From Geopsychrobacter electrodiphilus DSM 16401 (GTDB lineage: Bacteria; Desulfobacterota; Desulfuromonadia; Desulfuromonadales; Geopsychrobacteraceae): 64,000 nt of DNA. The notes beneath the pieces were generated by a model. That model did no database searches, was not told the DNA's origin, and saw nothing but the letters and a program-made list of their open reading frames with translations. The stretch is taken from positions 2,454,501 to 2,518,500 of the forward strand of contig NZ_ARWE01000001.1 of the NCBI RefSeq assembly GCF_000384395.1, written 5' to 3'. The position numbers were made by a program, and so were the translations under genes. Numbering within the stretch: the first letter of the stretch is position 1; each line of letters begins with the position of its first letter. Of the stretch, positions 7,397-32,489 are shown one piece after another.

Positions 7397-8002
7397 TCAA
7401 CCTGTGAATTCAACCTTGAGAAGAATCTCAGCGTCAGGGTCAGCACCACGAACCCGCTTAATCAAACTGGTGAAATCCAGCGGCAAATCGCCCCAGAAGG
7501 CGGCACCTCTCCCCGCTAAGAAGCCATCATCCTGCGCGCTCAAAAAATTATCCAGCTCAGCGCTGGACAGACAAACACCATGACCGAGAAAAATTGCCCC
7601 CAGTTCTGTCATCACCAAATTAAACAGTTTAATCCTGATACGGCCGATGCCGCTTTCGATCCGCTGCTGGTCCTTACATGAGATATCTCCGCGCATGGCG
7701 GCAAGATGACTTCCACGGCGCATCGTGGTGCCAACCAGACCTGGCATGGCCGAAGAGAGTGCTAACGTAGAGCCATCATTGACATACGAGGTTTTCAAAT
7801 CGTCTATCGGTTTAAAATCCAGGAACAGCGTCGTAATTCTCTCAACAATATAATCTTCAGCGATACCGAACTGGTCAGTCAACAGATCCGCGACACTGCA
7901 ACCGGTCTGAACTTGCAACCAAACCCCCTGTTGCAGAAACAAAGAGAAGGCAGGCAACCGCTCAAGGGGCAGAATCAAACGTAATGATTGTTTCTCAGTC
8001 AT
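7397..8002 (-). CDS. Conserved protein of AOR neighbourhood, unknown function
   Basis: A 201-residue soluble protein with no motif I can name. Visible features are an N-terminal LRLILPLERLPAF stretch, a DFKPIDDLKTSYVNDG segment resembling the MoaD-like idea of a beta-grasp loop followed by an SSAMPGLVG glycine turn, and a C-terminal helical half (about 115-201). No signal peptide or membrane segment. It lies between the AOR terminator and the MoaD-like gene in the same direction. I infer a maturation or chaperone role for the tungsten enzyme, from position only. Confidence 0.5.
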   Translation of the reverse strand: MTEKQSLRLILPLERLPAFSLFLQQGVWLQVQTGCSVADLLTDQFGIAEDYIVERITTLFLDFKPIDDLKTSYVNDGSTLALSSAMPGLVGTTMRRGSHLAAMRGDISCKDQQRIESGIGRIRIKLFNLVMTELGAIFLGHGVCLSSAELDNFLSAQDDGFLAGRGAAFWGDLPLDFTSLIKRVRGADPDAEILLKVEFTG

Positions 8003-8054
8003 AAACCCTGACCTTCAAGTGCGTTAAAAAGACTGTCTCTTTAATCGATTTTCA

Positions 8055-8090
8055 GAAAAAAAGGGGAGACCTGATCCAGGCCTCCCCTTC
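8055..8090 (-). terminator. Intrinsic terminator after the AOR gene
   Basis: On the minus strand, AAGGGGAG-CCTG...CAGG-CTCCCCTT is followed by a run of T. It separates the AOR transcript from the MoaD/HesA genes, at least partly. Confidence 0.85.
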
Positions 8091-8106
8091 AGCTTAGTTG
8101 TTATTA

Positions 8107-9846
8107 CTACCAGTTGTAAACTTCGTCCAGCTCCTCATCGGTCACACCGAAGGTGAGGTTGTGTGGTGGCAACTTTTCAGACTGGAAGAAGCTCGGCAGA
8201 CGATCATCGGCGGGACCGAAGCCGGCGGCCTTGTTGAACTCACGCTCCACGGACAGAACATTCTTGCCCAAGGCAACCACGTCGTCACCGGTCATCTCAA
8301 TCCCATAGAATCCGCCCAGCAAATCGAGCAGGGATTGGAAGGTCTCCGGTTGGTCAAGAATCGGGAAGGCGATGAACAGGCAGAGCCCGGTGGAATCGAT
8401 GGCGGTGGTTGCAATCTGCAAGTTACGCGACAACTCAACCTGGCCTTCAGGTTTCAAGGGATCGACATCGCCGCCGACCTTTAGGATGTTGGTAGCAACG
8501 GCATAACCAGCAGTGTGATCAGCGCCCATGGTGCTGGTCGCATAGGTCACGCCGATCCCCTGGACGGTACGCGGATCATAGGCAGGCAGCGCCTGATTCT
8601 TGACCACAGGCACACGCGTAACACCGAAGGCCTTGCCGACCATCCCGGCGCCGCCGCCGAGGATACGTCCCAAGGGAGTCCCCTTGGCAACTTCATCGCG
8701 CAGCAGGCTGACGGCACCTTTGCCGTCGCCAAACTCAATCACACCACCGTCCATGGCGACGCCGATGGCGACACCCATCTCAATCGTATCGACGCCGACG
8801 TTGTCGTCCCAGTAATCAAGAGTCGCGATGGTATCCAGATCGCTGATACCACAATGACCACCGTGGGACCAGACAGTCTCGTACTCGGGCTGTTTGGTCA
8901 GGTAGTTACCGTCTTTATCGTTATAGATACCGGAGCACTGAATGACGCAGCCACGATGGCAACCGTGAGTTGCTTTTCCACCGCGTGAAATCTCAAGTTC
9001 AGCCTGGGACTCGCCGCTGATCTTGGTCGCGCCTTCAAATTGTCCGCTCTTGAAGTTACGGGTCGGATAGCCGCCAGCTTCGTTAAGGACGTTGGTCAAG
9101 ACGTTGGTCCCGTAGGCTGGCAAGCCTTCACCCGAGACCGGGTGCTTACGGATCCCTTCAACGAAGGCGCGGTTAGCTGTTTTGAATCTCTCAGCGTCTT
9201 TGGGTGCACGGTTCGAACAACCGGCATCATCAAGAATGATAACCTTGACCTTCTTGGAGCCCATAACCGCGCCGACACCGCCGCGACCACAGTGACGGGT
9301 CGGGCGCAGCTCAGGATCGGTACAGGCGATGGAAGCCGAAGCCATCAAGCGCTCACCGGCAGTTCCAATCGACATGTAAGCAACCTTGTCGCCGTATTCC
9401 TTTTGCAACTTGGCAATCAACGGATAGTTGTCGAGCAGTTTATTGCTGTTGTCGACACTGATTTCAACCCGGTCCTTATTGATATGAATTTTGTAAAGGT
9501 CATCCCCTGCGGGTTGTCCCTCAATGACGATCGCAGCGTAGCCAAGACGCGCAAGCACCTGAGCCGCCTGACCACCGGCGTTCGACTCTTTGATGCCACC
9601 GGTCAGCGGGCTCTTGCAGCCGACCGAGATACGCCCGGAGATGGCAGCAGCAGTTCCACTGAGCATACCTGGAGCGATAACCAGTTTGTTTTCAGCACTT
9701 AAGGGATGACAATCCGGCGGAACCTCTTTACCAACGATCATCGAAGTCGTTGCCCGCCCCCCCAGAGCAGCATATTCCCCGGCGGCTTCAGTACTTTGTT
9801 GCGGCCCACCGGCAGCACTCATATTAATTCTTAAAATCTTGTCCAT
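8107..9846 (-). CDS. aor: Aldehyde:ferredoxin oxidoreductase, tungsten type
   Basis: 579 residues, similar to the usual 580-610 of the AOR family, which oxidises aldehydes to carboxylic acids with ferredoxin using a tungsto-bispterin and one [4Fe-4S] cluster. The N-terminal domain has the RINMS start and GRISVGCKSPLTGG pterin-binding region. The cluster cysteines appear in GCHRGCVIQC (about 297-306), with a DSTGLCLF segment supplying the fourth (about 496). A GGGAGMVGKAFG turn also fits. The start follows GGGAGAAGAG. A perfect sigma-54 promoter and an upstream activator-like motif precede it, so it should be induced conditionally. The neighbours (HesA/MoaD pair, ModE, MoSto homologue) supply metal and cofactor. 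The substrate is not fixed by sequence; short-chain aldehydes from the alcohol dehydrogenases are likely. Confidence 0.93.
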   Translation of the reverse strand: MDKILRINMSAAGGPQQSTEAAGEYAALGGRATTSMIVGKEVPPDCHPLSAENKLVIAPGMLSGTAAAISGRISVGCKSPLTGGIKESNAGGQAAQVLARLGYAAIVIEGQPAGDDLYKIHINKDRVEISVDNSNKLLDNYPLIAKLQKEYGDKVAYMSIGTAGERLMASASIACTDPELRPTRHCGRGGVGAVMGSKKVKVIILDDAGCSNRAPKDAERFKTANRAFVEGIRKHPVSGEGLPAYGTNVLTNVLNEAGGYPTRNFKSGQFEGATKISGESQAELEISRGGKATHGCHRGCVIQCSGIYNDKDGNYLTKQPEYETVWSHGGHCGISDLDTIATLDYWDDNVGVDTIEMGVAIGVAMDGGVIEFGDGKGAVSLLRDEVAKGTPLGRILGGGAGMVGKAFGVTRVPVVKNQALPAYDPRTVQGIGVTYATSTMGADHTAGYAVATNILKVGGDVDPLKPEGQVELSRNLQIATTAIDSTGLCLFIAFPILDQPETFQSLLDLLGGFYGIEMTGDDVVALGKNVLSVEREFNKAAGFGPADDRLPSFFQSEKLPPHNLTFGVTDEELDEVYNW

Positions 9847-10026: not shown

Positions 10027-10042
10027 TGCAATGCAAGTGCCA
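10027..10042 (-). promoter_or_regulatory. Sigma-54 promoter for aor
   Basis: Minus strand TGGCAC-TTGCA-TTGCA, an exact match to TGGCAC-N5-TTGCW, about 180 bp upstream of the AOR start. Transcription should begin near 10016, giving a long leader. Confidence 0.9.
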
Positions 10043-11815: not shown

Positions 11816-11847
11816 TGCCAGGCCCGATACGCTTATGGGGCCTGGCA
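11816..11847. repeat. Perfect 10-bp inverted repeat between convergent genes
   Basis: TGCCAGGCCC and GGGCCTGGCA surround a 12-nt loop, next to a T-run on the left. In neither direction does a T-tract follow the stem, so a classic intrinsic terminator is not formed. The stop codon of the minus-strand small gene lies in the loop. Confidence 0.7.
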
Positions 11848-12033
11848 GGTGAATGAGTCTGCGGTCCAGCGCCGGTAACGGCAATTGTAACAGGAGAGTT
11901 CTTCTTCGGCGCACTGCTCGTCTTCATCGTCGGCGCGAAAACTGGGACAGGTTCGGGCTTGTTCGGCAGCCAGGCTCCAGGCTTCGCGGCCCGCACGGAA
12001 TTGTTTTTTTCCAGATTCATTTCCAAGCCACAT
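11833..12033 (-). CDS. Small Cys-rich protein at the end of the mycofactocin operon
   Basis: 66 residues, start MWLGNESGKK after GGGAGGATATT. Cysteines occur at about residue 29 (RTCPSF), 42 (EQCAEE), and in a C-terminal SCYNCRYRRW...FTCQ cluster, a pattern fit for a zinc or Fe-S site. It lies 150 bp beyond the last radical SAM gene of the mft operon in the same direction. Function unknown. A longer start 21 nt upstream is possible but has a poorer site. Confidence 0.6.
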   Translation of the reverse strand: MWLGNESGKKQFRAGREAWSLAAEQARTCPSFRADDEDEQCAEEELSCYNCRYRRWTADSFTCQAP

Positions 12034-12183
12034 AATATCCTCCCTTAATGGCATTTCAGCTGGCGATGCGGCCGGCTCGGGAAACCAGCCCCTCCCCCCT
12101 GTTCTTCGGCTCCCGAGAATTTCGCGTCCATGCCTGCCAGAATGTTCTCGCTTCTCCGCGTCTTTCTATCCCGGATTGCCGTA

Positions 12184-13320
12184 TCAAAGATACTTATCCT
12201 GACCCATGTGCTTGAACAAGCGAAAAAAGTCTGAAAATCCCATACGCCTCAGGCTGCGTAAACAGCTGAAACCCTCAAATGGCCAGGCGATGCGTTCAAG
12301 GCCTGGTTCCGTGCAGGTCAGACACTCGGTAAAGGTGCCGATCTTTTTTCGAAAACAGGCCGCCTCTGAATTTCCCCGCAGAATCTTCAACGATTCCTGT
12401 TTAATATTCCCCAGACGCTTTGCAATCACCGGACAGGAAAAAACCTCGCCGTTATTTCGAACAAAAAGCGTGTTGAATCCGGCTGAGCAGGGTTTGCTGA
12501 CCTTCCCCGTTTTGAAATAATCGAGCAAGGTTTGCCGATGCCCGCTCCAGGCGTGATCCATTTCGAAATAAAAGGTTTCGAGGTTCTCCAGATCGGCGTT
12601 GCTGAAATTCAGGTTCTCCTCCAGAGCGACATTGCCGAAACGATTGGCGGTGATTATGCGAGGCGAAATGATCGTGAACAGTTCGTGTTCTCGGGCAAAG
12701 GCTGCAATCTGATCAAGTTCCTTGACGTTGTCCGGAATGATGGTGGTTTTGATGCCAAGAATCAGATTGGGGTGAGCTTCGCGCAGCGGCTTAAGTCCCA
12801 ACAGGGTCGCTTCGAGCTTGTCCCAGGCGCCCGGATAATTACGGATTTTGTCATGCACGGGCCCAACGGCATCGAGACCACATGCCAGGACCAGATCAAC
12901 CCCCTGCGCTTGCAAAAGGGCGACAACCCTTTCGGTAATCTCAAGAATACGCCCGGTCAAAATACCATTGGTGGTTAAAGCCAGGGTTTTTAATCTGGGG
13001 AAAGAGGCGGTCTTCGCGCGGGCGATCCAGGTCAGAAGTTCTTCCAGCTCCGGATGTAAGAATGGTTCTCCCCCGGTTATATCCAGCTCACGCAGAGAGC
13101 TGAGCTCCCGTGAAGACAAAAGGTCGGTCCAGGCTGTCAGGGGCAGGTCCGCCACATCCTGGGGAATCTGCCAGATGTTGCACATTTTGCAGCGGCATAT
13201 ACAGCGATGGGTAATTTCGAGGCTGAGCGCCTGGAGCCGGCCGGGTCGGCCAGTGGACTTCAACAGCCGAAACATCAGGCCATTATAGATCAACTTCCTG
13301 AGGATTCGGGCTCGGTTCAT
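12184..13320 (-). CDS. Radical SAM/SPASM-type protein in the mycofactocin operon
   Basis: 378 residues. The radical SAM cluster motif C40-X3-C44-X2-C47 (CICRCKMCNIW) is followed by the DITGGEPFLHPE glycine motif. The C-terminal part has cysteines (KPCSAGF, EVFSCPVI, CLTCTEPG) typical of a reduced SPASM/twitch auxiliary cluster domain. It lies 73 bp after mftF on the same strand. It is not MftC, which is at 20450, and is not a standard mft gene. Candidates are a tailoring enzyme for the mycofactocin product or a maturase for a partner enzyme; the substrate is unknown. Confidence 0.78.
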   Translation of the reverse strand: MNRARILRKLIYNGLMFRLLKSTGRPGRLQALSLEITHRCICRCKMCNIWQIPQDVADLPLTAWTDLLSSRELSSLRELDITGGEPFLHPELEELLTWIARAKTASFPRLKTLALTTNGILTGRILEITERVVALLQAQGVDLVLACGLDAVGPVHDKIRNYPGAWDKLEATLLGLKPLREAHPNLILGIKTTIIPDNVKELDQIAAFAREHELFTIISPRIITANRFGNVALEENLNFSNADLENLETFYFEMDHAWSGHRQTLLDYFKTGKVSKPCSAGFNTLFVRNNGEVFSCPVIAKRLGNIKQESLKILRGNSEAACFRKKIGTFTECLTCTEPGLERIAWPFEGFSCLRSLRRMGFSDFFRLFKHMGQDKYL

Positions 13321-13393
13321 AGCGCAACTCGAAGGGAGAAAAATGGCTTGACAGAGGTATGCAATCGGACGGCCCGGAGACCAACCCCGGGGA

Positions 13394-14812
13394 TCATGCC
13401 TTAATCAGTGTGAGGCGATAGCTGGCAAAATTTTTCATCTTTGAGCAACCCCAGAAAACCCCGCTGCCGTACGAAAGTTGTTCGAGCAGGTAATAGAAAC
13501 AGAATCCCGGAAAATACATTTTGGGCTTCCGCACTCGAAAATCGACCAGACCAACCCCAAGGAACATCACCAGAAGAGCTACGCCGCAAGGGGGATAGAG
13601 CGCGCTTGTCAAGAGCAGGGGCGTCAGGTAGTAGCGTAAAAGATGATAGCCGAGATAATAGCCGAGGCTGCCCACTGCGCGTATCCGGGCGGCGATAATC
13701 TTACCCCAGGGTAGGGACAACCCCTGTCTGGACATGCGCTGTCTGGTCAGGGCCGTGTCGCTCAGCAGCAGCAGAGCTGCGATGGGTAACGGCAGCAGTG
13801 ACAGGGTAGCGAGCGCGGCGACCAGCAACAATAAAATCCCGGTCAGCATCGGCGGGAGCAGCATCTTCTTGGCGCGCACCGGGTGGAGTTGTTGAAGCAG
13901 ACCTTCCGAGGTGCCGTAATCAAAGCGACGCTTCATAAAGGGCCAGGTGCGGCAGCGATGGGCGTGATAAACCGTTCCCTGCGGCAGATACTGGATTTTC
14001 CAGCCAGCATCGCGCAGGCGCCAGGTCAGATCGACATCCTCGCCGACCTGCAGTTCGGGGTTGAATCCGCCTGCCGCAGCAAAAGCGCTTTTACGCATGA
14101 GCAGGTTGCAGCTCGGCAGATAAAAGGTGTCCCCGCCTGCCCCGCCGCTCATCTCGCGCCGGCCCAGATTCAGGCTCGACATCACCGCCTCATAGCGATC
14201 GAGCGCCGACCCCTCGAACATGCCCGCGACCCAGCCGCCGACTGCGGCCAGACTCACGTCATTAAACGCTGGCAACAGATCTGCCAGCCAGTCGACCGAA
14301 GCGCTACAGTCGGAATCGATAAAGGCCAGGATTTCGCCGCTGGCAACGGACGCGCCCTTGTTGCGGGCCAGCGCCGGTCCGCCACCGACCGCCCCCGATC
14401 TGACCAAAAGCGCGCCAAGCTCGGTAGCAACCTTGGGGCTGTCGTCACTGCTGCCATCATCAACGACTACGACTTCCAGTATTTCGGAAGGATAGTTCAG
14501 CTCCTTTAAGGAGTTCAGGCATTGACGCAAGTCTGCGGCGCGGTCTTTAACCGGGATGACGATGCTGACTGCAGGCAATTGTGCCAGATCGGCCAGATTC
14601 TGATGACGCACCACAAAGCCGCTTTTAACCAGGCTCTCCAGAACTGTTGTTTCCGCTGCCGAGGTCGCTTCAATCTCGGCAGCCAGCATACGCTGCGTCA
14701 ACTTGAGCAGCGCCGGATTCAGGCGCACCATGCGCAAGGGTCGCGCAGAGACCAGAAAACTGCCGCGTACGGAGTCTTCAATAACAATCCCTGGCGCGAG
14801 CCCATAGGTCAT
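13394..14812 (-). CDS. mftF: Mycofactocin glycosyltransferase MftF
   Basis: 472 residues, the family length. A PqqD-like N-terminal part (about 1-80) precedes a GT2 glycosyltransferase domain (VSIVIPVKDRAADL, VVVDDGSSDDS, DxD-type FIDSDCS near 187, GEDVDLTWRLRDAGW acceptor motif). Several membrane helices follow (about 310-440). MftF attaches a beta-1,4-glucan chain to premycofactocin in mycobacteria. The start overlaps the ETF beta stop by ATGA. Its presence in the mftABC operon makes the assignment solid even though the host is not an actinobacterium. Confidence 0.88.
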   Translation of the reverse strand: MTYGLAPGIVIEDSVRGSFLVSARPLRMVRLNPALLKLTQRMLAAEIEATSAAETTVLESLVKSGFVVRHQNLADLAQLPAVSIVIPVKDRAADLRQCLNSLKELNYPSEILEVVVVDDGSSDDSPKVATELGALLVRSGAVGGGPALARNKGASVASGEILAFIDSDCSASVDWLADLLPAFNDVSLAAVGGWVAGMFEGSALDRYEAVMSSLNLGRREMSGGAGGDTFYLPSCNLLMRKSAFAAAGGFNPELQVGEDVDLTWRLRDAGWKIQYLPQGTVYHAHRCRTWPFMKRRFDYGTSEGLLQQLHPVRAKKMLLPPMLTGILLLLVAALATLSLLPLPIAALLLLSDTALTRQRMSRQGLSLPWGKIIAARIRAVGSLGYYLGYHLLRYYLTPLLLTSALYPPCGVALLVMFLGVGLVDFRVRKPKMYFPGFCFYYLLEQLSYGSGVFWGCSKMKNFASYRLTLIKA

Positions 14813-15705
14813 GAGTCGCTCCCGCTGACGAGCCCCTCTGCGGCAAAAAGCTGCATCAGCTGCTCTACGGTCTGTTCGACGGGAAGGCAGTGTAATTTCC
14901 CGGCGCGTGGTTTCAGGCCACCAGAGAGGAGCGCCAGAATCCGTTCAAAGGCGGGGAGGTTTGCATCGGGGGTCACGACCCGCTGTGGGTTCTGACGCGG
15001 CAGGCTGCACTGTTCTTTACCGAGTCTTGCCCCGAATTGCCCGAGTTCAGAGACCGACAGACCGAGCTCCGCCACCCCCCAGACTTCGATACCGGGCTCG
15101 AGAGATTTCATCAATGCATCATGGTCAGGATAACGTGGCTCGCAACAGCCGTCTTCAAAGAGCAGGGTGCAGGGGAGGCTCGAAGTAATTCGCTGCCGCG
15201 CGCCGCGATCACACTTGCGCAGCACCTCGATTTTCCCTTCGAGACAGCCGAGATCGAGGGCGGCCGTCACATAGGGGATCCCTAGTTTTGCAGAGGCCAG
15301 CGCCAAAGCCGGATCAGCGCCACGGTCGACCAGTTGTTGCCCGCTGACAAAGAGATCAGGCTTGAGAATTTCGACCAGACGTTCCAGCAGACGCGCATCG
15401 GCAACGGCGTCCCCCCCATTAAAGGCGGAGCTCCAGACCCGGATCACTCTGTGCGTCCCCAGCGACAGGGCCAGACGCAAATGATCATCAAGGCGCGGCG
15501 GCCCGATGGCCACAGTGGTCACTGTTCCACCCTGGGCTTCGGCTAGAGACAGAGCCTGCTCAAGGGCACAGAGATCTGCCGGGTTAGCGACGCGGCGCAA
15601 ACCACGCTCACGTACCCCGAAGCCATCAGCGGTCAAACGGACCGGAGGACGCGGATCACAGGCTTCGCGCAGCAGAACGACGATATTCAGTTCTTTTTGA
15701 CTCAT
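14809..15705 (-). CDS. Electron-transfer flavoprotein beta subunit, mycofactocin-associated
   Basis: About 298 residues; start MSQKELNIVV chosen because GAGGAG lies 7 nt upstream. ETF beta pattern: VVLLREACDPRPP, FGVRERGLRRVANPADLCALEQAL, TTVAIGPPRLDDHLR. It is longer than usual (about 255) with a divergent C-terminal tail of Cys-containing segments. It pairs with the alpha subunit at 17428 though separated by the FixCX genes. It should carry electrons from the mycofactocin-linked dehydrogenase system to the FixC-like quinone reductase. Confidence 0.8.
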   Translation of the reverse strand: MSQKELNIVVLLREACDPRPPVRLTADGFGVRERGLRRVANPADLCALEQALSLAEAQGGTVTTVAIGPPRLDDHLRLALSLGTHRVIRVWSSAFNGGDAVADARLLERLVEILKPDLFVSGQQLVDRGADPALALASAKLGIPYVTAALDLGCLEGKIEVLRKCDRGARQRITSSLPCTLLFEDGCCEPRYPDHDALMKSLEPGIEVWGVAELGLSVSELGQFGARLGKEQCSLPRQNPQRVVTPDANLPAFERILALLSGGLKPRAGKLHCLPVEQTVEQLMQLFAAEGLVSGSDS

Positions 15706-15742
15706 GGAGCTACTCCTCAAACATCAGGACAAACTGTATCAT

Positions 15743-15884
15743 GGGGACAGGCACCCTGCGGGAGCCAGTCCCTCAGGTCATGCGGTAAGAGACGTCAAAG
15801 CCGCCGCACCTCACACCTCACGGGGACAGGCACCCTGCGGGAGCCAGTCCCTCAGGTCATGCGGTAAGAGACACCAAAGCCACC
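15743..15884. repeat. Tandem copy of a REP-like palindrome plus the 3' end of fixX
   Basis: GGGGACAGGCACC...GGAGCCAGTCCC occurs at 15743 and again at 15822 (79 bp offset). Each copy is followed by the sequence encoding the FixX C-terminus (VSYRMT and stop on the minus strand). The first 52 nt are identical. The outer copy is a broken duplicate of the fixX tail; the inner copy is the live gene end. The palindrome resembles REP elements common in Geobacter-type genomes (recollection). Confidence 0.85.
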
Positions 15885-16136
15885 ACGTGGGTAACGCCAG
15901 CGGGTGAAGGCGTCCTTGCGGCAGACAACATAACAGGTGCCGCACTCCAGACAGCCGTCATGCACAAAGGTCATCTTCTGCGTTTCTTCATCCCAGCTGT
16001 AACAGCGAGCCGGACAACCGACGACGCAGGCCCGGTTATCGCATTTTTGACAGATATCGGAATCGAGGATGATATGCGGTTCGCGGTCGACGTTGAAGCT
16101 CGTCATGTCGAAAATTTCATCAAGATTGATATTCAT
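15852..16136 (-). CDS. fixX: Ferredoxin-like protein FixX
   Basis: 94 residues; start MNINLDE overlaps the FixC stop (ATGA) with GGAGAG upstream. Cysteines CQKCDNRACVVGCP and CLECGTCYVVC match FixX-type ferredoxins that bind one [4Fe-4S] cluster and dock on FixC. It ends VSYRMT, duplicated downstream. It relays electrons from ETF through FixC to menaquinone. Confidence 0.87.
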   Translation of the reverse strand: MNINLDEIFDMTSFNVDREPHIILDSDICQKCDNRACVVGCPARCYSWDEETQKMTFVHDGCLECGTCYVVCRKDAFTRWRYPRGGFGVSYRMT

Positions 16137-17431
16137 AGTGCTCTCCATCCGCTGTAGACATCGGCCAGCAGATTTTTCAGCCCGACCTTTTTGCTGGCGA
16201 GTCGCAGCAGCATTTTAGTCATCGACTCTTTCGGTTGGCCATCAATGCGATAGATCTGATCCATCATGCTGCAGACCAGATCGGGGTATTGACTGTAGAT
16301 CCGATCATTGTGGAGCATCTTCGGCGTCCGGCGGTAGAGCTTGAGGTCCTTGATGACATAGCTATCGGCCAACATGGTTCGATAATCGCGCAACACAAAA
16401 CGGGTGAAGTTTTGTTCGCGATGTGCCTTGATTACTGTCTTACCTGCAATCACGCCAGACTGGGTCGCGAGATTGATCCCCTCGAGATTAAGACCGGTAA
16501 CGATACACATCGCCGCGGCATCACCGGCAACCAGAATGCCGTCCGCCTCAATCTGCGGAATCATTTCGAATCCGCCCTCGGGGACCAGATGGGCCGAATA
16601 TTCGAGCAGTTTCCCACCACGCAGCTGTTTGGCCATCTGCGGCTGCTGCATAAACTCATTCAACAGCTCATAAGGGGTCTTCTTCCCCTGGGTGAGGCTG
16701 GAGAGGTGCAGCACCAGACCTAGCGAGAGAGAGTCATAGTTGGTGTACAAAAAGCCGCCGCCACGCACCCCCGAGGTGCAACCGACGATTTCACTGGATG
16801 CACCCTGATCACGGACCAGCCCGAAACGATCATCAATCACCTCTTTCGGCATATCGATCAGGGCCTTGACCCCGACCGCCAGGTGCGAGGGGTTGAACTT
16901 CCCCTGCCGCAGCCCAGCCTTCTTGGCGATAAACGAGAGCACACCGTCGGCGGCAATCACCACCGGTGCCCGGAGCTCGCTGCCGTCGCGCAGCAGGGTA
17001 ACCCCGACGACCTGACCATTCTCTTTGATGACATCGTCAACCGTGGTGCGGTTGTAGAGTTTGGCCCCGGCCTTAACCGCTTCTTCGGCCAGCCAGCGGT
17101 CAAATTTCGGACGCATGACGGTATAACCGTTGTAGGGAGTACGATCAGAGGCCTCGGTATCAAAGTTGACATTAAAACTCGCTTCGCCAGTCATGAACGT
17201 CAGCGACTTCTTGACGATATGTCGCTCCAGCGGAGCCTGGTTCCAGAAATCGGGGAACAGTTCCTCAAGCGCAGTCAGGCGATGCAACACACCACCAAAC
17301 ATATTCTTTTCACCTGGAAACTCGCCACGCTCGAGGAGGGCAACGTCGAGCCCCGCCCGAGCCATGGTCAGTGCCGCCGCAGAACCGGCCGGGCCGGCTC
17401 CGACCACGATGGCGTCGAAGGTGCGTTTCAT
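16133..17431 (-). CDS. FixC-like FAD oxidoreductase (ETF:quinone oxidoreductase type)
   Basis: 432 residues. FAD-binding GAGPAGSAAALTMARAG at the N-terminus, a central DGVLSFIAKKAGLRQG region and a second ATG-type FAD motif GILVAGDAAAMC (about 310) identify the FixC/ETF-QO family. The C-terminus is a FixC-like helical region. Overlapping starts and stops with EtfA and FixX show a single translational unit. It takes electrons from ETF to the quinone pool, and is the likely respiratory outlet of the mft operon. Confidence 0.88.
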   Translation of the reverse strand: MKRTFDAIVVGAGPAGSAAALTMARAGLDVALLERGEFPGEKNMFGGVLHRLTALEELFPDFWNQAPLERHIVKKSLTFMTGEASFNVNFDTEASDRTPYNGYTVMRPKFDRWLAEEAVKAGAKLYNRTTVDDVIKENGQVVGVTLLRDGSELRAPVVIAADGVLSFIAKKAGLRQGKFNPSHLAVGVKALIDMPKEVIDDRFGLVRDQGASSEIVGCTSGVRGGGFLYTNYDSLSLGLVLHLSSLTQGKKTPYELLNEFMQQPQMAKQLRGGKLLEYSAHLVPEGGFEMIPQIEADGILVAGDAAAMCIVTGLNLEGINLATQSGVIAGKTVIKAHREQNFTRFVLRDYRTMLADSYVIKDLKLYRRTPKMLHNDRIYSQYPDLVCSMMDQIYRIDGQPKESMTKMLLRLASKKVGLKNLLADVYSGWRAL

Positions 17432-18456
17432 GCGGCTTCTCCTGTTGCAGTCTTGAGCCGCTCGATCAACAGCGGCAGCACTTCACGCAGATCGGCGACA
17501 AAGGTTTCATCGGAATTGGGAACAATCGGCGCCTTGGCGTCGATATTGACCGCCACCACCCGCCTGGAATCCTTGATCCCGCCGAGATGATGCATCGAGC
17601 CGGAGATCCCCAGCGCCAGGTAGAAACGCGGCGCCACGGTCTTGCCGGTCTGACCGACCATCCGTTCAAAACCGGTGTAGCCGAGATCATAGGCGGGCCT
17701 TGTCACCCCGAGGGAGGCATTCAGCAGACGGGTCAACTCTTCGACCTGGGCGAAACTCTTCGGGTTGCAGCCAAGTCCGGCGCTGACCATGACCTGCGCT
17801 TCCGAGACATCGACCGTCAGCGGATCGGCCGGGATACGTTCAATGATCCGCGTACCCCCGGTCTCCAAATTTACTGCCGGTTGCCAGAGCTCGGTTTTCA
17901 TCTTACCCGTTTGCATACTCGGCAAGACCACGCTGCTCAGCACGCGCGGGTGCACGGTCAAAACCAGCCTGCCGCTGCCGTCCCAAGTTTTTGATTCGGC
18001 GATCTGCTGCCCTAAAATCCGCCGGCTCAAAACCAGCTGGTTGCCATCCACACGAGTGGCGATCGTTTCAGTCAGTAGGGCGGCATCGAGTTCGGCCGCC
18101 AACAGCGGTGCCAGGGCGCCGCCCAGGTCGTTATGCGGCAGCAACAGCAGCGCCGCGCCCTGCGCCCGAGCCGCGGCGGCGATCAATCTCCCCTGCAGTT
18201 CAAGGGAATCTTCCGCGCCTTCCGGCCCGTCGATCAGGGTCAGCTTGTCGACGCCGTAAGGAGCCATGGCTTGCAGCACATCTTCGGGCGCACCGGCAAA
18301 TGAGAGCACCGACCAGTCAGCGGCCAGCGTCCTGGCCAGACGTGAGGCCTCCGACAGAATCCCTTTGCCAAAATCGTCCAGTTCCCCCTGTGGCAGGTCG
18401 ACAAAAACCAGGATTTTAACCTGCTGCCCGGCATGTTGAAGCTTCGCGGTTGACAT
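17428..18456 (-). CDS. Electron-transfer flavoprotein alpha subunit, mycofactocin-associated
   Basis: 342 residues, typical length. N-terminal ETF domain (VKILVFVDLPQGEL), then the C-terminal FAD domain with AGLGCNPKSFAQVEEL, GQTGKTVAPRFYLALGISG and HLGGIKDSRRVVAVNID, the classical ETF alpha signature. Start overlaps the stop of the OYE gene (TGATG). It forms the FAD-containing half of the heterodimer with the 14809 beta subunit. Confidence 0.88.
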   Translation of the reverse strand: MSTAKLQHAGQQVKILVFVDLPQGELDDFGKGILSEASRLARTLAADWSVLSFAGAPEDVLQAMAPYGVDKLTLIDGPEGAEDSLELQGRLIAAAARAQGAALLLLPHNDLGGALAPLLAAELDAALLTETIATRVDGNQLVLSRRILGQQIAESKTWDGSGRLVLTVHPRVLSSVVLPSMQTGKMKTELWQPAVNLETGGTRIIERIPADPLTVDVSEAQVMVSAGLGCNPKSFAQVEELTRLLNASLGVTRPAYDLGYTGFERMVGQTGKTVAPRFYLALGISGSMHHLGGIKDSRRVVAVNIDAKAPIVPNSDETFVADLREVLPLLIERLKTATGEAA

Positions 18457-20417
18457 CAGATGGTCCTCCCTACTTCATGTCCTTCCCAGATCGCCATGTC
18501 GACCTTGCGCGGGGCAACGCAATCGCCGATGCGGTGGAGTTCCTTGACCTTCCCCTTGAGGGCGAAATAGAGATCCTCGTCCGCCGCCTGCCCCATGGCC
18601 AGCACCAGGGTGTCGTAACCGCTCCATTCGTCCCAGACGTTGTTGTAGACGTTGAAGCCCTTGATGGTTTTATTGCCGATCTCGCCAGAAACCTCCATCA
18701 CCGCGATATCCGGGGTGAAGCTGACACCTTTTTGCAGCAGGCGCTGGCGAGTCAGGTAGAGATCCTGGGTCGGTCCGAGTTCGGCGCCGATGAAGAGGCT
18801 GGAACAGATAATGTGGACTGTTTTGCCCTGATCTGCGAGATATTCAGCCGTGGCGGTAGCGCGATGATGACCATCGTAATCGATGAGACAGACCTTCTGC
18901 CCGACTTCGACTTCCTGATTGAGGACCTGCCAGACATTGCACACACCAGGGCCATCACAACCGCCGACCGGATACTGCTTGGGTTTACTCCCAGTGGCAA
19001 TGATCACCGCGTCGGCACCGGAGTTGAGCACCGCTTCAGCTGTGACCTCAACCCCGAGTTCAACCTTGACCCCGGCCTTGTCAACCTGTTCTTTTTCGTT
19101 ACGGATAATTACGCCGAACTCGTCGCGTCCGGCACCCTTCATCGCGGTCAGAACCTGACCACCGAGGGTTTCGCCGCGATCGAAAAGGGTGACGTCGTGC
19201 CCGCGGCGACCGGCCATTTTAGCTGCCCACATGCCGCCAGGACCGCCGCCGATGACCATGACCTTCTTCTTGAGCGGCGCCAGCTTCAGGGTCCCCTCTC
19301 CCCATTTCTTTTCAAGCCCGACCGCCGGGTTCTGCACGCAACCGAGAGAGCGGTTAACGCCCATCCGCCCGATACAGCCCTGGTTGCAGGCAATACAGGA
19401 ACGGATATCCTCAAGACGACCCTCTTCGGCCTTCTTCGGCAAGTAGGGGTCGCAGATCAGGGCGCGACACATGCCGATCATGTCGGCCTGCCCGGCGGCC
19501 AAAACCTTTTCAGCCATGGTCGGATCATTGATACGGCCCGTGCAGAAGACTGGCAGATTGATCTTTTCACGGATGCCGGCGGCGAGCGGGATGGTATAAC
19601 CGAGCGGGGTGTGCATCGAACCTTCAACCAGATAAAGGTTGTAGAAGGTCGCGATGGAGAGGTCGACGAAATCGATCAGGCCACTCACTTCGAACAGGCC
19701 GCAGATCTCCTGCACCTGAGCCAGGTCGAGCCCGCCTGGGATCATCTCGTCGGCGCACATGCGGATGCCGAGGGTAAAGTCGTTGCCGACCGCCTTGCGC
19801 ACCGCGGCGATAAACATCAAAGGCGCCCGCATGCGGTTTTCCAGGCTGCCGCCGAATTCGTCCTGGCGGTGATTGGTCAAGGGTGAAAGGAACTGACGCG
19901 CCAGGCTCGAGTGACCGAACTGCAGCTCGACGCCGTCGAAGCCACCCTGACGCACATGCTCGGCGCTGATGGCGAAGTAGCGGCAGACCTCTTCAATATC
20001 CTCAATCTCCATCGCCTTGGGCGTTTCGCGGAACAGGATATCCGGTACCGGCGAGGGCGCCCAGACCGGCAACCGCGAGATGCTGCCGTCGCACTGCTGC
20101 CCATTGTGATTCAGCTGACAGAACATCTTGGTGTCGTACTGATGCACGTAATCGGTGATCTTCCGAAACCCGGGGATGACCTCGGGGTGGAAGGCCTCAA
20201 CCAGCTTTTCGTAAGCGGTGTCGGTCGGATGGACACTCATCTCTTCGGTGGTTATCAGGCCCGCCCCACCCTTGGCCCGCTCACCCCAGTAGTACATGTG
20301 GCGTTCACTTGGCAGGCAGTTTTCGGCAAAATTGGTCAGATGCGGCTGAAAAGAGATCCGGTTCTTCACGGTTACTTTGCCGAGCTTCTGGGGCGAGAAA
20401 AGATTTTGGAACATCAT
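18456..20417 (-). CDS. Mycofactocin-system FadH/OYE-family oxidoreductase
   Basis: 653 residues in 2,4-dienoyl-CoA reductase layout: an FMN TIM-barrel (about 1-330: NRISFQPHLTN, HNGQQCDG, GGFDGVELQFGHSSLARQFLSP), a [4Fe-4S] cysteine set (CIACNQGCIG then GCVQNP, about 340-360), and a FAD/NAD domain (VMVIGGGPGGMWAAKMAGRRG). It ends in a DCVAPRKVDMAIWEGHEVG FAD contact. OYE-family enzymes recur beside mft genes. The substrate is unknown; transferring electrons between the reduced mycofactocin, ETF and NAD(P) is inference. Confidence 0.88.
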   Translation of the reverse strand: MMFQNLFSPQKLGKVTVKNRISFQPHLTNFAENCLPSERHMYYWGERAKGGAGLITTEEMSVHPTDTAYEKLVEAFHPEVIPGFRKITDYVHQYDTKMFCQLNHNGQQCDGSISRLPVWAPSPVPDILFRETPKAMEIEDIEEVCRYFAISAEHVRQGGFDGVELQFGHSSLARQFLSPLTNHRQDEFGGSLENRMRAPLMFIAAVRKAVGNDFTLGIRMCADEMIPGGLDLAQVQEICGLFEVSGLIDFVDLSIATFYNLYLVEGSMHTPLGYTIPLAAGIREKINLPVFCTGRINDPTMAEKVLAAGQADMIGMCRALICDPYLPKKAEEGRLEDIRSCIACNQGCIGRMGVNRSLGCVQNPAVGLEKKWGEGTLKLAPLKKKVMVIGGGPGGMWAAKMAGRRGHDVTLFDRGETLGGQVLTAMKGAGRDEFGVIIRNEKEQVDKAGVKVELGVEVTAEAVLNSGADAVIIATGSKPKQYPVGGCDGPGVCNVWQVLNQEVEVGQKVCLIDYDGHHRATATAEYLADQGKTVHIICSSLFIGAELGPTQDLYLTRQRLLQKGVSFTPDIAVMEVSGEIGNKTIKGFNVYNNVWDEWSGYDTLVLAMGQAADEDLYFALKGKVKELHRIGDCVAPRKVDMAIWEGHEVGRTI

Positions 20418-20449
20418 GATTTATGGTCTCCTGCTAGATTCCGCCGGAC

Positions 20450-21493
20450 TCAGGCGGCACTCACATCGGCTTTGGCATCAGCAATCGAGGTCACGCAACG
20501 CTCCAGACACTCCGGGTCGCCTCCCTCGATATCGTCTTTTAAATGATAGGCCACCGCCGGACAGCCACCATGGCATTGGTCGAAGCGCTGACAGTCTTCG
20601 CAGGAATGGATACGCAGCCCGCGGAATGAAGCGAAGATTTCCGAGTTATCCCAGATCTCTTTAAAACTGTTTTTACGAAGATTCCCGGCTTCGAAGCGGT
20701 CACTCTGCAGAAAAGCACAGGGGTAAACCATGCCGGTCGGGCTGACGCAACAGGTGAGCTTAGCCGCACCACACAGGTTGAGCCCCAGGCCCTGACGCTC
20801 CTGAGAGGTCAGCGAGAAGAAACTGTCGCCGGTGCGCACGTTCTGGTTTTTGGCCAGCCAGGCGGAAAAGGCCAGCAGCTGAGTCGGGGTCGGGCGCAAC
20901 TCCTGCCAGTTGTCGGCGCCACGTCCCGAGGGGCGAAAGCGGCTGATGCGCAGGGTCACGCCGATGCGGCCGGCCAGATCTTGCAGAGCTTGAATTTCGT
21001 CGGCATTTTCTCTAGTCAAAACGGTATTTATACTGGTCGGGATTTCAGATTTAGCCAACAGCTCCAAAGCTTTGAGGGCAATATTAAAAGTCCCTTTGCC
21101 GCGGATTGCCTCACAGGTGCTCTGCTGGGCGCCGTCGAGGCTGACCTGGATCGCCACCAGTCGATTGCGCGAAAGACGCTCAACCAGTTCCGGCGTGATC
21201 AGGGTACCGTTCGTCGAAATACAGGTCATGATCCCGAGCTCGTGACAGGCATCCAGAATATGTAAAAAATCAGGCCGCATAAAAGGTTCGCCGCCGCCGA
21301 AGTTGATCTGGAAGACCCCTTCGCCGTGCAGCTGCTCAACCAGGGCCAGCGCCTCTTCAGTAGAGAGTTCACCTTCGGCCGGTTCGGCCGAAGATGACAG
21401 GCAGTGCCGACAGCGCAGATTGCAAGCCAGAGTTACTTCCCAGGTAAGGTTGACCGGCGAGCGCAGGCCCTTTTCAACATACTGGTTGCTCAC
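20450..21493 (-). CDS. mftC: Mycofactocin radical SAM maturase MftC
   Basis: 347 residues with C24-X3-C28-X2-C31 (CNLRCRHC), INFGGGEPFMRPDF and a SPASM domain (CGAAKLTCCVSPTG, YPCAFL, CEDCQRFDQCHGGCP, CLERC). MftC decarboxylates the C-terminal tyrosine of MftA and cross-links it to valine. It overlaps mftB by 20 nt and follows mftA, fixing the assignment. The gap to the OYE gene is 32 bp. Confidence 0.93.
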   Translation of the reverse strand: MSNQYVEKGLRSPVNLTWEVTLACNLRCRHCLSSSAEPAEGELSTEEALALVEQLHGEGVFQINFGGGEPFMRPDFLHILDACHELGIMTCISTNGTLITPELVERLSRNRLVAIQVSLDGAQQSTCEAIRGKGTFNIALKALELLAKSEIPTSINTVLTRENADEIQALQDLAGRIGVTLRISRFRPSGRGADNWQELRPTPTQLLAFSAWLAKNQNVRTGDSFFSLTSQERQGLGLNLCGAAKLTCCVSPTGMVYPCAFLQSDRFEAGNLRKNSFKEIWDNSEIFASFRGLRIHSCEDCQRFDQCHGGCPAVAYHLKDDIEGGDPECLERCVTSIADAKADVSAA

Positions 21494-21731
21494 GGAGAAA
21501 CCCCCTTTCGAGTAATTTGGTAATAAAGTTTTGCAGCACGCTCTGCTGCTGTGCGTTCAGTCCTGCCGGAAGCTCATCCTTGCGCCGCTCGGTCTCAAAA
21601 AAATCCGGGGCCAAAAGCTTGCCGGTCGCAGCAAAGAGAAGGCGCGGCCCCCGCGAATCGTAAAACAGGAGGCCGAACCCCTCTTGCCGCACGCGGCAGG
21701 CGGGATGCAGCTTGATGCCTGCCGCAGCCAT
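21474..21731 (-). CDS. mftB: Mycofactocin peptide chaperone MftB
   Basis: 85 residues from MAAAGIKLHP, whose ATG lies 1 nt past the mftA stop (TGAGATG). A PqqD-like RiPP recognition element: RVRQEGFGLLFYDSRGPRLLF, then a C-terminal helix LQNFITKLLERGFL. It delivers the MftA leader to MftC. A longer start inside mftA is possible (MKSSPS) but would overlap the precursor. It overlaps mftC at its 3' end. Confidence 0.88.
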   Translation of the reverse strand: MAAAGIKLHPACRVRQEGFGLLFYDSRGPRLLFAATGKLLAPDFFETERRKDELPAGLNAQQQSVLQNFITKLLERGFLREQPVC

Positions 21732-21732
21732 C

Positions 21733-21852
21733 TCAGTAAACCCCGCAGATACCGTCGATGGCGAGCTCTTCAACCTGGATCTCTTCCAGAATCTGCGGCT
21801 CCTCGTTACAGTTTTCGGTCTCTACAACTTCATTCTCAAATTTCTTTTCCAT
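21733..21852 (-). CDS. mftA: Mycofactocin precursor peptide MftA
   Basis: 39 residues, start MEKKFENE after AAAGGAG. The leader is very acidic with two cysteine-free helices apart from one Cys at 15, and the core is the terminal VEELAIDGICGVY. The IDGxCGVY end is the diagnostic mycofactocin core; the terminal Val-Tyr becomes the redox cofactor after MftC action. Isoleucine replaces the common methionine before Cys. The gene is first in the operon, 63 bp downstream of a perfect sigma-54 promoter. Confidence 0.95.
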   Translation of the reverse strand: MEKKFENEVVETENCNEEPQILEEIQVEELAIDGICGVY

Positions 21853-21914: not shown

Positions 21915-21930
21915 TGCAACGGCGGTGCCA
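21915..21930 (-). promoter_or_regulatory. Sigma-54 promoter for the mycofactocin operon
   Basis: Minus strand TGGCAC-CGCCG-TTGCA, exact consensus, with the mftA start about 63 nt downstream. No TetR-type MftR gene is in the window, so control differs from mycobacteria. Confidence 0.9.
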
Positions 21931-24075: not shown

Positions 24076-26016
24076 TTAGCCCCTGTCTCCCTGCCAGACC
24101 GGCAACAGCACCGTAAACTGCGACCCTTCCCCCAGCTTGCTTTCAAGCCGGATTTCCCCTCCGTAGCGCTTGACGATATTGTAGGTCAGGGCCAGACCGA
24201 GCCCGACCCCCTTACCCACTTCTTTGGTGGTGAAGAAGGGTTCCCAGATCCGTTCAAGGATGTTCGGCGCCATACCGCAACCGGTATCACGGACCAGGAC
24301 TGCGATCATCTCATTATCACGAGGTTCAGTGGTGACCTCGACCAGCCCGGGACCATCAATGGCATGATAGGCGTTGACCAGCAGGTTCATAAAAACCTGA
24401 CGCAGGCCGGAGGGGTCGCCAAGCACCGGAGGGAGGTCGGGACTCATTCTGGTGATCACCTGAATTTTCTGATAGCCAGGAAGATACTTGAGTAGCTCGA
24501 GGATCTCCTCAAGAACAATATTTATCTCGACCTTGACCGGGCCTCCGTCCGACTTGCGTCCGAAGCTGAGCAGATGATCGATGATCCCTTTGCAGCGATA
24601 GGATTCGCGAACGATGACCTCGAGATAACGCGGAAAGTCACTCAGGCGCAGATCCTCTTTCAACTTCGGTTCCTCGCGAAATCGCCGCTGCAGGGCTTCG
24701 GCGAAACCTGCGACCGAGGTCAGGGGATTATTGATTTCGTGGGCGATGCCCGTGGCTAAGACCCCGATACTCGACATCTTTTCTGTCTGGATCAGATGCA
24801 GCTCCTGCTGACGCTTTGCGGTGACATCGCGAAAAAAAACCAGGGCACGGTTATGTTCACCCTGGGCGTCCTTGATCGGTGTGGCTGTGATCTCCAGTTG
24901 GCGGGTCTCCTGTCCTTCACGCTCCAGGGCCAGGCAGCTGTCAACCCTCTCCCCCTTAAGTGCTAATTCAACCGGACAGAGCTGCGGCATATGGTTTTTA
25001 TCGGGGTGAAAGACCTCGGCGCAAAATTTTCCTGGCAGGATCTCCTGTGGAAAGAGCTGGGGGCTGATAAGGTTGTGGTGCTGAATCATCCCGGTGTGGT
25101 CATAAACCGCTATACCATCACCGATCGAATCAAAGATGGCCTGAAGCTCGTTGGTTTTGTTGCGCAGTTCTGATTCGGCCTGTTTGCGCGGGGTGATATC
25201 CTGGGTTGTGCCATAAAGTTTGACAACCTTGCCGGCGCTGTTGACCGAAGCCTCAACAATCGTATAGACCCAGCGCAGAGTACCGTCATCAAATTGCAGG
25301 CGATGTTCGATCTCATAATTTTTGCCGAACTCAGCCCCCCTGCGCAAATGTTCGAGGACGTTGTCACGGTCATCAGGATGGACCACGCGAGAGAAAGCTT
25401 CATCAGTGGTTTCCTCCGGGCGCAGACGCATAATACGCAGCAGCTCCGCGGAGGCACGTACCTCGCTGGTCGCGGGGTCGAAGCTCCAGGACCCGACATG
25501 GGTCATGGCCTGGGCTTTTGCCAGATTGTATTCGCTCTGTGACAACGCCTGCTCGGCGCGTTTCTTTTCACTGATATCGACGAGTACGGCAAGGCACTCC
25601 GTACCGGATTCAGTGACCAACGCTTCAATTCGCACCGACAAAGGGAGAGGACCTTCTTGTGCCAGTTGCAACCGGCAGGTCTCTTTTTTTTGGCTGATAA
25701 AAACTGTTTCGATAAAATCGGCAAAGACGAGGCAATCCTCATAATCCACGAAATGTTCAAACTTCTGACCGATCAATTCGCCGCACTTGAGCCCCAATAG
25801 CGCCGCGCCAGTCTGGTTGGCGGCCCGAATGCCGCCGGCACGATCGAAGGTGAAATAACCGACCGGGGCGAAATCATAGAGGAAGGCGTAGCTGTTGCGC
25901 GAAGCCTCGATCTCCTCGAGGGCACGGCTCAGTTCTGCGACTTTTAACTCCAACGCGATCTGTTCGGCTGGTTTTTTGCGTTGAGTCTTCACCGAAACAT
26001 CCTCTTGAATCTCCAT
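24076..26016 (-). CDS. PAS-domain sensor histidine kinase, orphan
   Basis: About 646 residues from MEIQEDVSV (AAAGG 7 nt upstream; GTG or ATG starts up to 45 nt earlier are possible). Three PAS domains (about 40-150, 165-285, 295-410) precede HisKA ([17 protein letters not shown], His as phospho-site) and HATPase ([36 protein letters not shown]). No transmembrane segment, so cytoplasmic sensing. The third PAS and the kinase core are very like those of the kinase at 35915, including FHP...CPVE cysteines. No response regulator lies beside it. It overlaps the dead glycerol-dehydrogenase end. Confidence 0.9.
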
Positions 26017-26057
26017 GGGTTTGCCTTTGACTACGACTGGCATGCCAGTAGAAGCTA

Positions 26058-26339
26058 TCACTTCTGTTGCGCTATGTAATCTACCCCCAGTGCATCAGCT
26101 GCCCAGATGGCGGCCTCGACCATTTCAGCTGTCACCGGAAACCAGGTCGCGTGGATCGTCTCCCCGGCGACTACCGCGTTTTCTGCTACCAGCCTGATCT
26201 CTGCTGCCGTCGGGTTGCTCAGGTTCAATTCGGCGAGGCAGATCGGTAGCCCGACCAAGTAACAGAAAGCCTGAACCTCGCGAATATCACACAACGGGCG
26301 TCCTTCCAGTACGAGCTGGGCAAGCACCCCGAACGCGAC
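26058..26339 (-). pseudogene. C-terminal remnant of a glycerol dehydrogenase (GldA-like)
   Basis: The minus strand reads VAFGVLAQLVLEGRP, GLPICLAELNL, ENAVVAGETIH and FPVTAEMVEAAIWAADALG, matching the last ~95 residues of GldA (VAFGVL, LPVTLADIG, ETIHNMPFPVTPEMV, IIAADALG). A TGA stands directly before the first conserved residue and the metal- and NAD-binding parts are gone. It is a relic truncated by deletion or rearrangement beside a sensor kinase. Confidence 0.85.
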
Positions 26340-32473: not shown

Positions 32474-32489
32474 AGCAAGCAGAGTGCCA
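32474..32489 (-). promoter_or_regulatory. Sigma-54 promoter for the 32.3-kb alcohol dehydrogenase
   Basis: Minus strand TGGCAC-TCTGC-TTGCT, exact TGGCAC-N5-TTGCW consensus, about 205 bp upstream of the start codon. Confidence 0.9.

Follow-up and report, generated by a model that had tools for sequence, protein, structure and literature searches.

Among the described systems closest to the locus reported here is the mycobacterial mycofactocin cluster, mftRABCDEFG, in which MftG is the mycofactocinol dehydrogenase. We analysed a stretch of 64,000 nucleotides (nt) from Geopsychrobacter electrodiphilus DSM 16401 (hereafter the window), a bacterium inferred from its relatives to be an anaerobe, which carries on the minus strand, at window positions 13394-21852, a mycofactocin operon with the gene order mftA-mftB-mftC-OYE2-etfA-fixC-fixX-etfB-mftF. 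The operon has mftA, mftB, mftC and mftF in common with the mycobacterial cluster, including the core peptide and the glycosyltransferase, but it has no mftD, no mftE or mftG over cut-off, and adds a module of OYE2, an electron transfer flavoprotein (ETF) and FixCX together with a sigma-54 element. This observation of an MftD-less mycofactocin operon with a module was confirmed, and we conclude that the OYE2-EtfAB-FixCX module probably carries out the step of MftD, the making of premycofactocin, with quinone as the electron sink.

Published work is cited here from available excerpts of each paper. In Mycobacterium smegmatis an mftE mutant still made mycofactocin, in reduced amount, whereas an mftD mutant made none (PMC7491314), so the absence of mftE need not block synthesis, and a substitute is needed above all for the MftD step. 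Mycofactocin genes were reported in Geobacter in 2011, with the families TIGR03966 and TIGR03964 in most, not all, clusters (PMC3023750). The clusters of Geobacter uraniireducens and Geobacter sp. M18 in that study (Haft, 2011) are like the present one, probably of the same lineage, and occur with iron alcohol dehydrogenases; its excerpts do not discuss OYE2 and ETF as a replacement of MftD. A 2015 genome paper ties the mycofactocin genes of G. pickeringii to methanol use (PMC4358379). In Saccharopolyspora, 17 mycofactocin-like clusters (BGCFlow, PMC11162802) resemble the window in that mftD is missing and TIGR03997, given as of 'unknown function', is present. They differ in being actinobacterial, and the excerpts of that paper name no function for the OYE protein and survey no exclusion; S. 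erythraea is cited there as a producer of methylated mycofactocin. The electron acceptor of MftD was not found stated in the excerpts of the mycofactocin literature.

NCBIfam already labels OYE2 and the ETFs as mycofactocin-associated. Among the matches listed from open-licence literature, titles, abstract openings and excerpts gave no statement that OYE2 replaces MftD, of repeated swaps or of a conserved sigma-54 element; the Geobacter mycofactocin genes and the NCBIfam names were known. Two further systems are comparable in part. Trimethylamine dehydrogenase with its ETF (PDB 1djn, 1o94) shares the full-length fold of OYE2 (TM-score 0.85-0.86 by query length) and supplies the best match of the ETF beta subunit. 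The window EtfA, EtfB, FixC and FixX are homologues of FixABCX, but fall below the curated FixC and FixX cut-offs and are fixed in a mycofactocin operon.

The mycofactocin operon

Curated cut-offs are those of NCBIfam models, with Pfam models used alongside. The genes of the operon are tightly spaced, several with overlap:

21733..21852 (-), mftA, precursor peptide of 39 amino acids: a 39-codon open reading frame (ORF) with the C-terminus LAIDGICGVY; a related MftA lies at the same place in other loci
21474..21731 (-), mftB, chaperone: TIGR03967, 59 bits, cut-off 33
20450..21493 (-), mftC, radical SAM/SPASM maturase with a GTG start: TIGR03962, 352 bits, cut-off 265
18456..20417 (-), OYE2, mycofactocin system FadH/OYE family oxidoreductase 2, proposed premycofactocin synthase: TIGR03997, 961 bits, cut-off 793
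17428..18456 (-), etfA, electron transfer flavoprotein alpha: cut-offs of PF00766 and PF01012 exceeded; NF038209, 127 bits, below 240
16133..17431 (-), fixC-like ETF:quinone oxidoreductase flavoprotein: PF21162, 27.9 bits, cut-off 27.7; Fix model 390, below 610
15852..16148 (-), fixX-like ferredoxin: NF011993 FixX, 68 bits, below the cut-off of 166
14809..15720 (-), etfB, electron transfer flavoprotein beta: PF01012, 85.5 bits; mycofactocin-associated model 74, below 200
13394..14812 (-), mftF, glycosyltransferase: TIGR03965, 376 bits, cut-off 280

MftB, MftC, OYE2 and MftF exceeded their curated NCBIfam cut-offs, and the scores of MftC and MftF, together with the DGICGVY C-terminus of MftA beside an MftB over cut-off, place all four Mft proteins in a mycofactocin cluster, which bears out the earlier note on this DNA in calling mftA, B, C and F. 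EtfA, EtfB, FixC and FixX are superfamily matches under the specific NCBIfam cut-offs. The start of mftB was read from the sequence as the ATG at 21731, in place of the TTG at 21773 given in the ORF list. The DGxCGVY end of MftA was present in 23 of 24 loci inspected, MftD-type and OYE2-type alike.

The order MftC-OYE2-EtfA-FixC-FixX-EtfB-MftF was found exactly in 44 of the 67 MftC loci of named genomes, and a further 16 begin MftC-OYE2 and keep the same order as far as the matches go. The remaining seven deviate, namely L068 and L079 (MftD type), L105 and L117 (no match seen after MftC), L115, L121 and L130 (L and G numbers denote our loci and genomes). With the order kept in most of these 67 loci, the association of the operon genes is not due to chance.

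Distribution of MftD and the OYE2 module

The absence of mftD claimed by the earlier note held genome-wide, with zero MftD matches at E <= 0.001 across the 4.24-Mb single-contig genome. The note had gone on to suppose that the late steps must lie elsewhere or differ. That the MftD step is missing or done elsewhere is not the best reading, as the module occurs in genomes that have no MftD, and two close relatives with MftD are without it. Across 52 MftC-bearing genomes and plasmids, 38 carried OYE2 or a relative only, 10 MftD only, one both and three neither (Fisher P = 1.9e-7, kinship ignored); when OYE2 was accepted over cut-off only, the counts were 35, 10, one and six (P = 4.8e-6, kinship again ignored). 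G176 (OYE2 split over two frames) and G218 (a fragment at a contig end) were scored as without OYE2, and the split plasmid OYE2 of L143 was counted as present in the first tally and absent in the second. OYE2 or a relative was thus present in 38 of the 41 MftD-less members, the exceptions being G176, G218 and G426, and was over cut-off in 35.

Among 136 genomes of the window's order, MftC was over cut-off in 20, and 18 of these had OYE2 over cut-off; two further genomes had OYE2 over cut-off with mftC cut by a contig end. MftD was over cut-off in three of the 136: G083 and G087, precisely the two MftC genomes in which OYE2 did not reach its cut-off, and G124, where MftD and OYE2 occur together. 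In G083 (L057) and G087 (L062) mftF directly follows mftC and exactly OYE2-etfA-fixC-fixX-etfB is gone, while G086 (L052), the sister of G087 in the MftC tree, keeps the module. Compared with the MftDs of Mycolicibacterium and Streptomyces, identity is 64-71% for G124, 67-70% for G083 and 63-68% for G087. These values raised the idea that G083 and G087 had each gained MftD on their own, which was not borne out, as the order's four MftDs form one group in a small tree (84/94 support); a single entry of MftD into the order is possible, with the module lost at two places in the MftC tree. A search of the 47 named genomes behind 71 loci found MftD in two, at the same places as G087 and G124.

A sample of 400 genomes drawn from the phylum of G176 (locus L125, a Chloroflexi bacterium) contained 20 with MftC. 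In four of these MftD passed its cut-off and a search at E <= 1e-60 gave no OYE2; in 13 OYE2 passed its cut-off and MftD did not. The other three reached neither cut-off: OYE2 is spread over two frames in G176, G218 has a fragment of it, and G426 has neither protein. A distance of 154-158 kb separates MftC from OYE2 in G232, G250 and G330, and the two are on separate contigs in G241, G290, G298 and G314; the exclusion holds there too, so in these genomes it is not a matter of operon order.

Twelve plasmids had MftC at E <= 1e-40. MftD was present on four (Mycolicibacterium, Thermomicrobium, Streptomyces NBC_00080 and Tsukamurella), the only ones returned by a plasmid-wide search at E <= 1e-90, and the other eight (two haloarchaeal, six from Streptomyces), none with MftD, carried ETF and Fix genes alongside OYE2 or its relative. 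Five of the eight OYE2-type proteins were over cut-off, the haloarchaeal ones reached 625 and 615 bits (cut-off 793), and one, split over two frames, was unscored. Streptomyces plasmids showed the order ABC-D-E-F or ABC-OYE1-OYE2-etfA-fixC-fixX-etfB-SDR-F-E. Tandem OYE-family genes were seen in Streptomyces, some Chloroflexota, a Desulfatitalea and a Spirochaete (L124:9030-11815, L130:3884-7785, L142:11212-15218).

On the MftC tree, at least five changes between the MftD and OYE2 states were counted, four of them forced by strongly supported branches. The tree was built by a quick method that gave long-branch warnings, from rows that reached 85% coverage and 200 bits, with duplicates entered once; of its 99 rows 94 were labelled (10 MftD, 84 OYE2), leaving L105, L115, L117, L154 and L162 unlabelled. 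The presence of the module where MftD is absent, with two MftD-bearing relatives lacking it, indicates that the module most likely does the step of MftD.

MftE, MftG and the exit of electrons

That mftE is missing, as the earlier note also had it, was upheld by a genome-wide search, which found no protein over cut-off; the best match was a creatininase-family protein encoded far from the operon, at 114 bits against a cut-off of 172. MftE over cut-off was found in none of the 136 genomes of the order. The creatininase (G000:C1:1935408-1936067) was rejected as an MftE: it adjoins a gene that is queE-like by eye, such proteins occur in 69 of the 136 genomes, and they are absent in four of the 20 MftC genomes (G012, G032, G083, G086), of which G012 and G032 are 97-100% complete.

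No MftG passed its cut-off in 45 MftC genomes, MftD-type and OYE2-type, this genome included; the search used the model TIGR03970 only, two further MftG models being named in PMC11778925. ETF and FixC families deliver electrons to quinones, and the earlier note had read the ETF-FixCX genes as a branch wiring mycofactocin to the quinone pool. A quinone link is likely, as the predicted sink of the OYE2 reaction; a flow of electrons from mycofactocin itself to quinone is not the best reading, since the module tracks the absence of MftD. Such a flow is the core of an alternative that we regard as unlikely, in which the module stands in for MftG as a mycofactocinol dehydrogenase chain, handing the electrons of the reduced cofactor on to quinone, while another enzyme does the MftD step. 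It agrees with what ETF and FixC families do, here by homology, with the lack of MftG over cut-off in this genome and 44 others, and with the annotation of MftG beside MftC in just two of 11 annotated plasmid clusters, both MftD-type. About 25% of MftC genomes are reported to be without MftG, the replacement being left open, and menaquinone reduction to be favourable (PMC11778925). However, six MftD-type genomes (G083, G087, G308, G356, G364, G529) have neither MftG nor OYE2 over cut-off, so a missing MftG does not require the module, and lack of MftG does not predict the module whereas lack of MftD does, being nearly always accompanied by it. MftG was rejected as the cause of the pattern for its absence over cut-off from all 45 genomes.

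An electron exit route other than MftG is possible, given a GMC-family ORF (G000:C1:232443-234011) that matches MftG in two pieces of 246 and 75 bits (cut-off 387). A plasmid search with the Tsukamurella MftG returned its self-match only at E <= 1e-50, although another plasmid has an annotated mftG. A second role of the module in re-oxidising the reduced cofactor is also possible. The explanation that the module has both roles, making premycofactocin and re-oxidising the reduced cofactor, would account for its having its own ETF and quinone reductase and fits the exclusion of MftD, the absence of MftG and the dedicated electron chain; it needs a single active site to oxidise both an amine and an alcohol, and we consider it decidedly improbable.

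OYE2 and its electron-transfer partners

The closest folds found over the whole length of the OYE2 structure model (mean predicted local distance difference test score, pLDDT, 78.5) were those of 2-naphthoyl-CoA reductase, trimethylamine dehydrogenase, histamine dehydrogenases, dienoyl-CoA reductase and an amine oxidase. OYE2 thus has the full-length three-domain fold of trimethylamine dehydrogenase- and histamine dehydrogenase-like proteins, which is common to the 2-naphthoyl-CoA and dienoyl-CoA reductases. The second dinucleotide motif of OYE2 (DYDGHHRATATAE) has no GxGxxG, whereas dienoyl-CoA reductase is glycine-rich there; the histamine dehydrogenase motif is close. The OYE2 motif suits an enzyme that would not use NAD(P)H. 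Four cysteines of the kind expected for a 4Fe-4S cluster are present in the window OYE2, three of them invariant in 24 OYE2s. The best solved relative of EtfB was 1o94_C, the ETF that partners trimethylamine dehydrogenase and shares its PDB entry with that enzyme, and those of FixC were FixC 7koe_C and the ETF-ubiquinone oxidoreductase 2gmh.

Proposed pathway and points against it

The gene content, conserved order, exclusion with MftD and promoter motif are observed, and each reaction is put forward on homology and the replacement pattern. By the known chemistry of their families, MftB and MftC would convert the C-terminal Val-Tyr of MftA to the cyclised core. Release of AHDP would fall to a cellular peptidase, which is proposed because the genome has no MftE over cut-off. 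OYE2, with the three-domain fold of trimethylamine and histamine dehydrogenases and dienoyl-CoA reductase, would then oxidise AHDP at its amine and so give the premycofactocin ketone, the reaction of MftD, which is assigned to OYE2 because of the replacement pattern. Electrons would pass by homology from OYE2 to EtfAB, to FixC-FixX and to the quinone pool, and MftF would glycosylate the product. Besides the replacement pattern, the fold of OYE2 and the best match of EtfB, the lack of MftG over cut-off in genomes of both types, the like MftA ends and the Saccharopolyspora clusters with TIGR03997 and no mftD count in favour of this pathway.

Several points weigh against this assignment. The pLDDT of the OYE2 model is under 50 at the cluster loop and in parts of the active site. 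OYE2 is 27% identical to trimethylamine dehydrogenase, which acts on another substrate and whose catalytic active-site tyrosine is not conserved in OYE2 in the alignment. The second cluster-type cysteine of OYE2, at position 344, is Cys in 14 of the 24 proteins and Asp in 10. By sequence OYE2 scores 318 bits against 2-naphthoyl-CoA reductase, 262 against dienoyl-CoA reductase and 229 against trimethylamine dehydrogenase. That its best sequence match is a reductase would suit a further alternative, by which MftD-less lineages leave the cyclised peptide as an amine or alter it in another way, with OYE2 as a tailoring reductase, and the product is not mycofactocin. This is very improbable, as the MftA end and MftF are kept in MftD-type and OYE2-type loci alike, and mycofactocin is cited for S. 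erythraea, whose genus has no mftD in the cluster (PMC11162802); the methylated mycofactocin of that species is taken from a citation in that paper.

Returning to the assignment of the MftD step to the module, the distribution too has its exceptions. G124, with MftD and OYE2, has 7% contamination and 560 contigs. Below cut-off, OYE-family paralogues are held by G083 and G087 (236 and 462 bits), and MftD-family paralogues by the OYE2 genomes G241, G250, G330 and G558. G426 has neither OYE2 nor MftD (both at E <= 1e-60), and a metagenome-assembled genome of Anaeromyxobacter (L115) has no OYE2 (E <= 1e-60) or MftD (E <= 1e-100). Independent pairs on the tree number only four, with the G124 row set as having both; all are opposite (sign test 0.125), too few for significance. 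An OYE-etfA-fixC-fixX-etfB row in G075 (L063) and a similar set in G091 (L064) occur in genomes without MftC over cut-off; their OYE proteins share 35-39% identity with OYE2 and do not reach its cut-off. The architecture by itself is therefore no proof of mycofactocin, and seems to be that of a general ETF-linked oxidation unit, with the mycofactocin form as one example. Finally, a dedicated ETF and quinone reductase seems excessive for a biosynthetic step and would suit cofactor re-oxidation. An argument that MftD needs oxygen, the module being an anaerobe's device, was dropped, as the module or a relative is also found in Streptomyces and haloarchaea.

Two side observations belong here. The OYE2s with Asp344 include Anaeromyxobacter and Dehalococcoidia proteins and perhaps have an Asp-ligated cluster. 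The Anaeromyxobacter genome of L115 has MftA, B, C and F, and is either incomplete or a third solution.

Sigma-54 elements and neighbouring genes

The earlier note had sigma-54 in place of the mycobacterial MftR control, and the prediction of sigma-54 control of the operon is well founded. A -24/-12 element (TGGCACCGCCGTTGCA) that matches the consensus exactly lies upstream of mftA, and the exact motif TGGCACN5TTGCW occurred four times in the window against 0.12 expected, a number reached by none of 100 shuffles. With one mismatch allowed the window gave five matches against 2.8 expected, so the case rests on the exact match and on its fixed place. Of 53 stretches scanned, 44 (39 of 48 distinct genomes) had an element with at most one mismatch, placed 59-109 nt ahead of the MftA match. 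The scan took loci with an MftA match and 150 nt upstream, five of the 53 stretches were second copies from the same genome, and distances were measured to the start of the MftA match, not necessarily the start codon. The nine stretches without the element (L112, L114, L116, L117, L119, L126, L127, L130, L134) were mostly outside Geobacter-like bacteria. The elements and neighbouring genes of the window are as follows:

21915..21930 (-), sigma-54 -24/-12 element upstream of mftA: exact consensus match
10027..10042 (-), exact sigma-54 element, 181 nt upstream of the gene like aldehyde:ferredoxin oxidoreductase (AOR): motif scan
32474..32489 (-), exact sigma-54 element, 205 nt upstream of the iron alcohol dehydrogenase gene: motif scan
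38773-38788 (+), exact sigma-54 element before the gene at 39148: motif scan
8107..9846 (-), AOR-like protein: named by eye; no NCBIfam match at 1e-30
31064..32269 (-), iron alcohol dehydrogenase that may be a nicotinoprotein partner: NDMA-dependent methanol dehydrogenase as the top NCBIfam model, 304 bits, below 625
34524..35918 (-), sigma-54 response regulator: PF00158 and PF00072
35915..37141 (-), histidine kinase adjoining the sigma-54 regulator: PF00512 and PF02518
37141..38301 (-), ErcA-like iron alcohol dehydrogenase: NF041833, 411 bits, below the cut-off of 550
24076..26061 (-), PAS histidine kinase upstream of the operon: Pfam; homologue in 25 of the 67 named MftC loci
12184..13320 (-), second radical SAM/SPASM protein (rSAM2), after mftF: PF04055 and PF13186 over cut-off
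11833..12054 (-), 73-codon cysteine-rich ORF: neither a Pfam nor an NCBIfam family matched

The elements shared by the operon, the AOR-like gene and the iron alcohol dehydrogenase fit a use of the cofactor in alcohol oxidation. A homologue of the AOR-like protein was found in 36 of the 67 named MftC loci, which suggests that aldehyde oxidation follows the mycofactocin-dependent step. ThiF-like (6295-7122) and MoaD-like (7112-7336) genes, named by eye, stand with the AOR-like gene downstream of the operon (6295-9846, minus strand). Behind the element at 38773-38788 lie a membrane-protein-like ORF (39148-39705) and a porin-like ORF (39702-40913), both named by eye with no Pfam match; the genes at 39148-40913 are perhaps in the same sigma-54 regulon. 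The ErcA-like dehydrogenase and the histidine kinase (35915-38301) form with the sigma-54 regulator an apparent operon that resembles an alcohol-sensing unit.

The span of 11833-21852 in the earlier note also covers the rSAM2 gene and the 73-codon ORF. Among the matches listed for rSAM2 no NCBIfam cut-off was reached (best 25 of 48). Relatives of rSAM2 lie near MftC in 11 of the 67 named loci, from Desulfuromonadales, Anaeromyxobacter, Dehalococcoidia/Chloroflexi, a Spirochaete and the MftD-type locus L057/L068, and it is possible that rSAM2 is an extra tailoring enzyme for the cofactor. A relative of the 73-codon ORF (58%) adjoins rSAM2 in L057/L068.

Conclusion

On balance we lean towards a wider reading, in which OYE2-EtfAB-FixCX would be an oxygen-independent premycofactocin synthase, an amine dehydrogenase linking the final redox step of cofactor synthesis to the quinone pool, and repeatedly exchanged with the unrelated flavoenzyme MftD, in Desulfuromonadales, Anaeromyxobacter, Chloroflexota, Streptomyces and, in a more distant form, haloarchaea, and in which it may also re-oxidise the cofactor in organisms without MftG. 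The finding bears on a gap in the cofactor pathway, as no enzyme was found assigned, in the literature searched, to the redox-centre step in MftC organisms without MftD; the module supplies a named candidate for this step together with a partner electron chain. The natural pair of G086, with the module, and its sister G087, with MftD, makes the question directly testable. The finding also bears on how organisms without MftG handle the electrons of the cofactor, and it ties mycofactocin in Geobacter-like bacteria to sigma-54-type promoters and alcohol oxidation genes. If the module does stand in for MftD, it would explain how such microbes complete mycofactocin.

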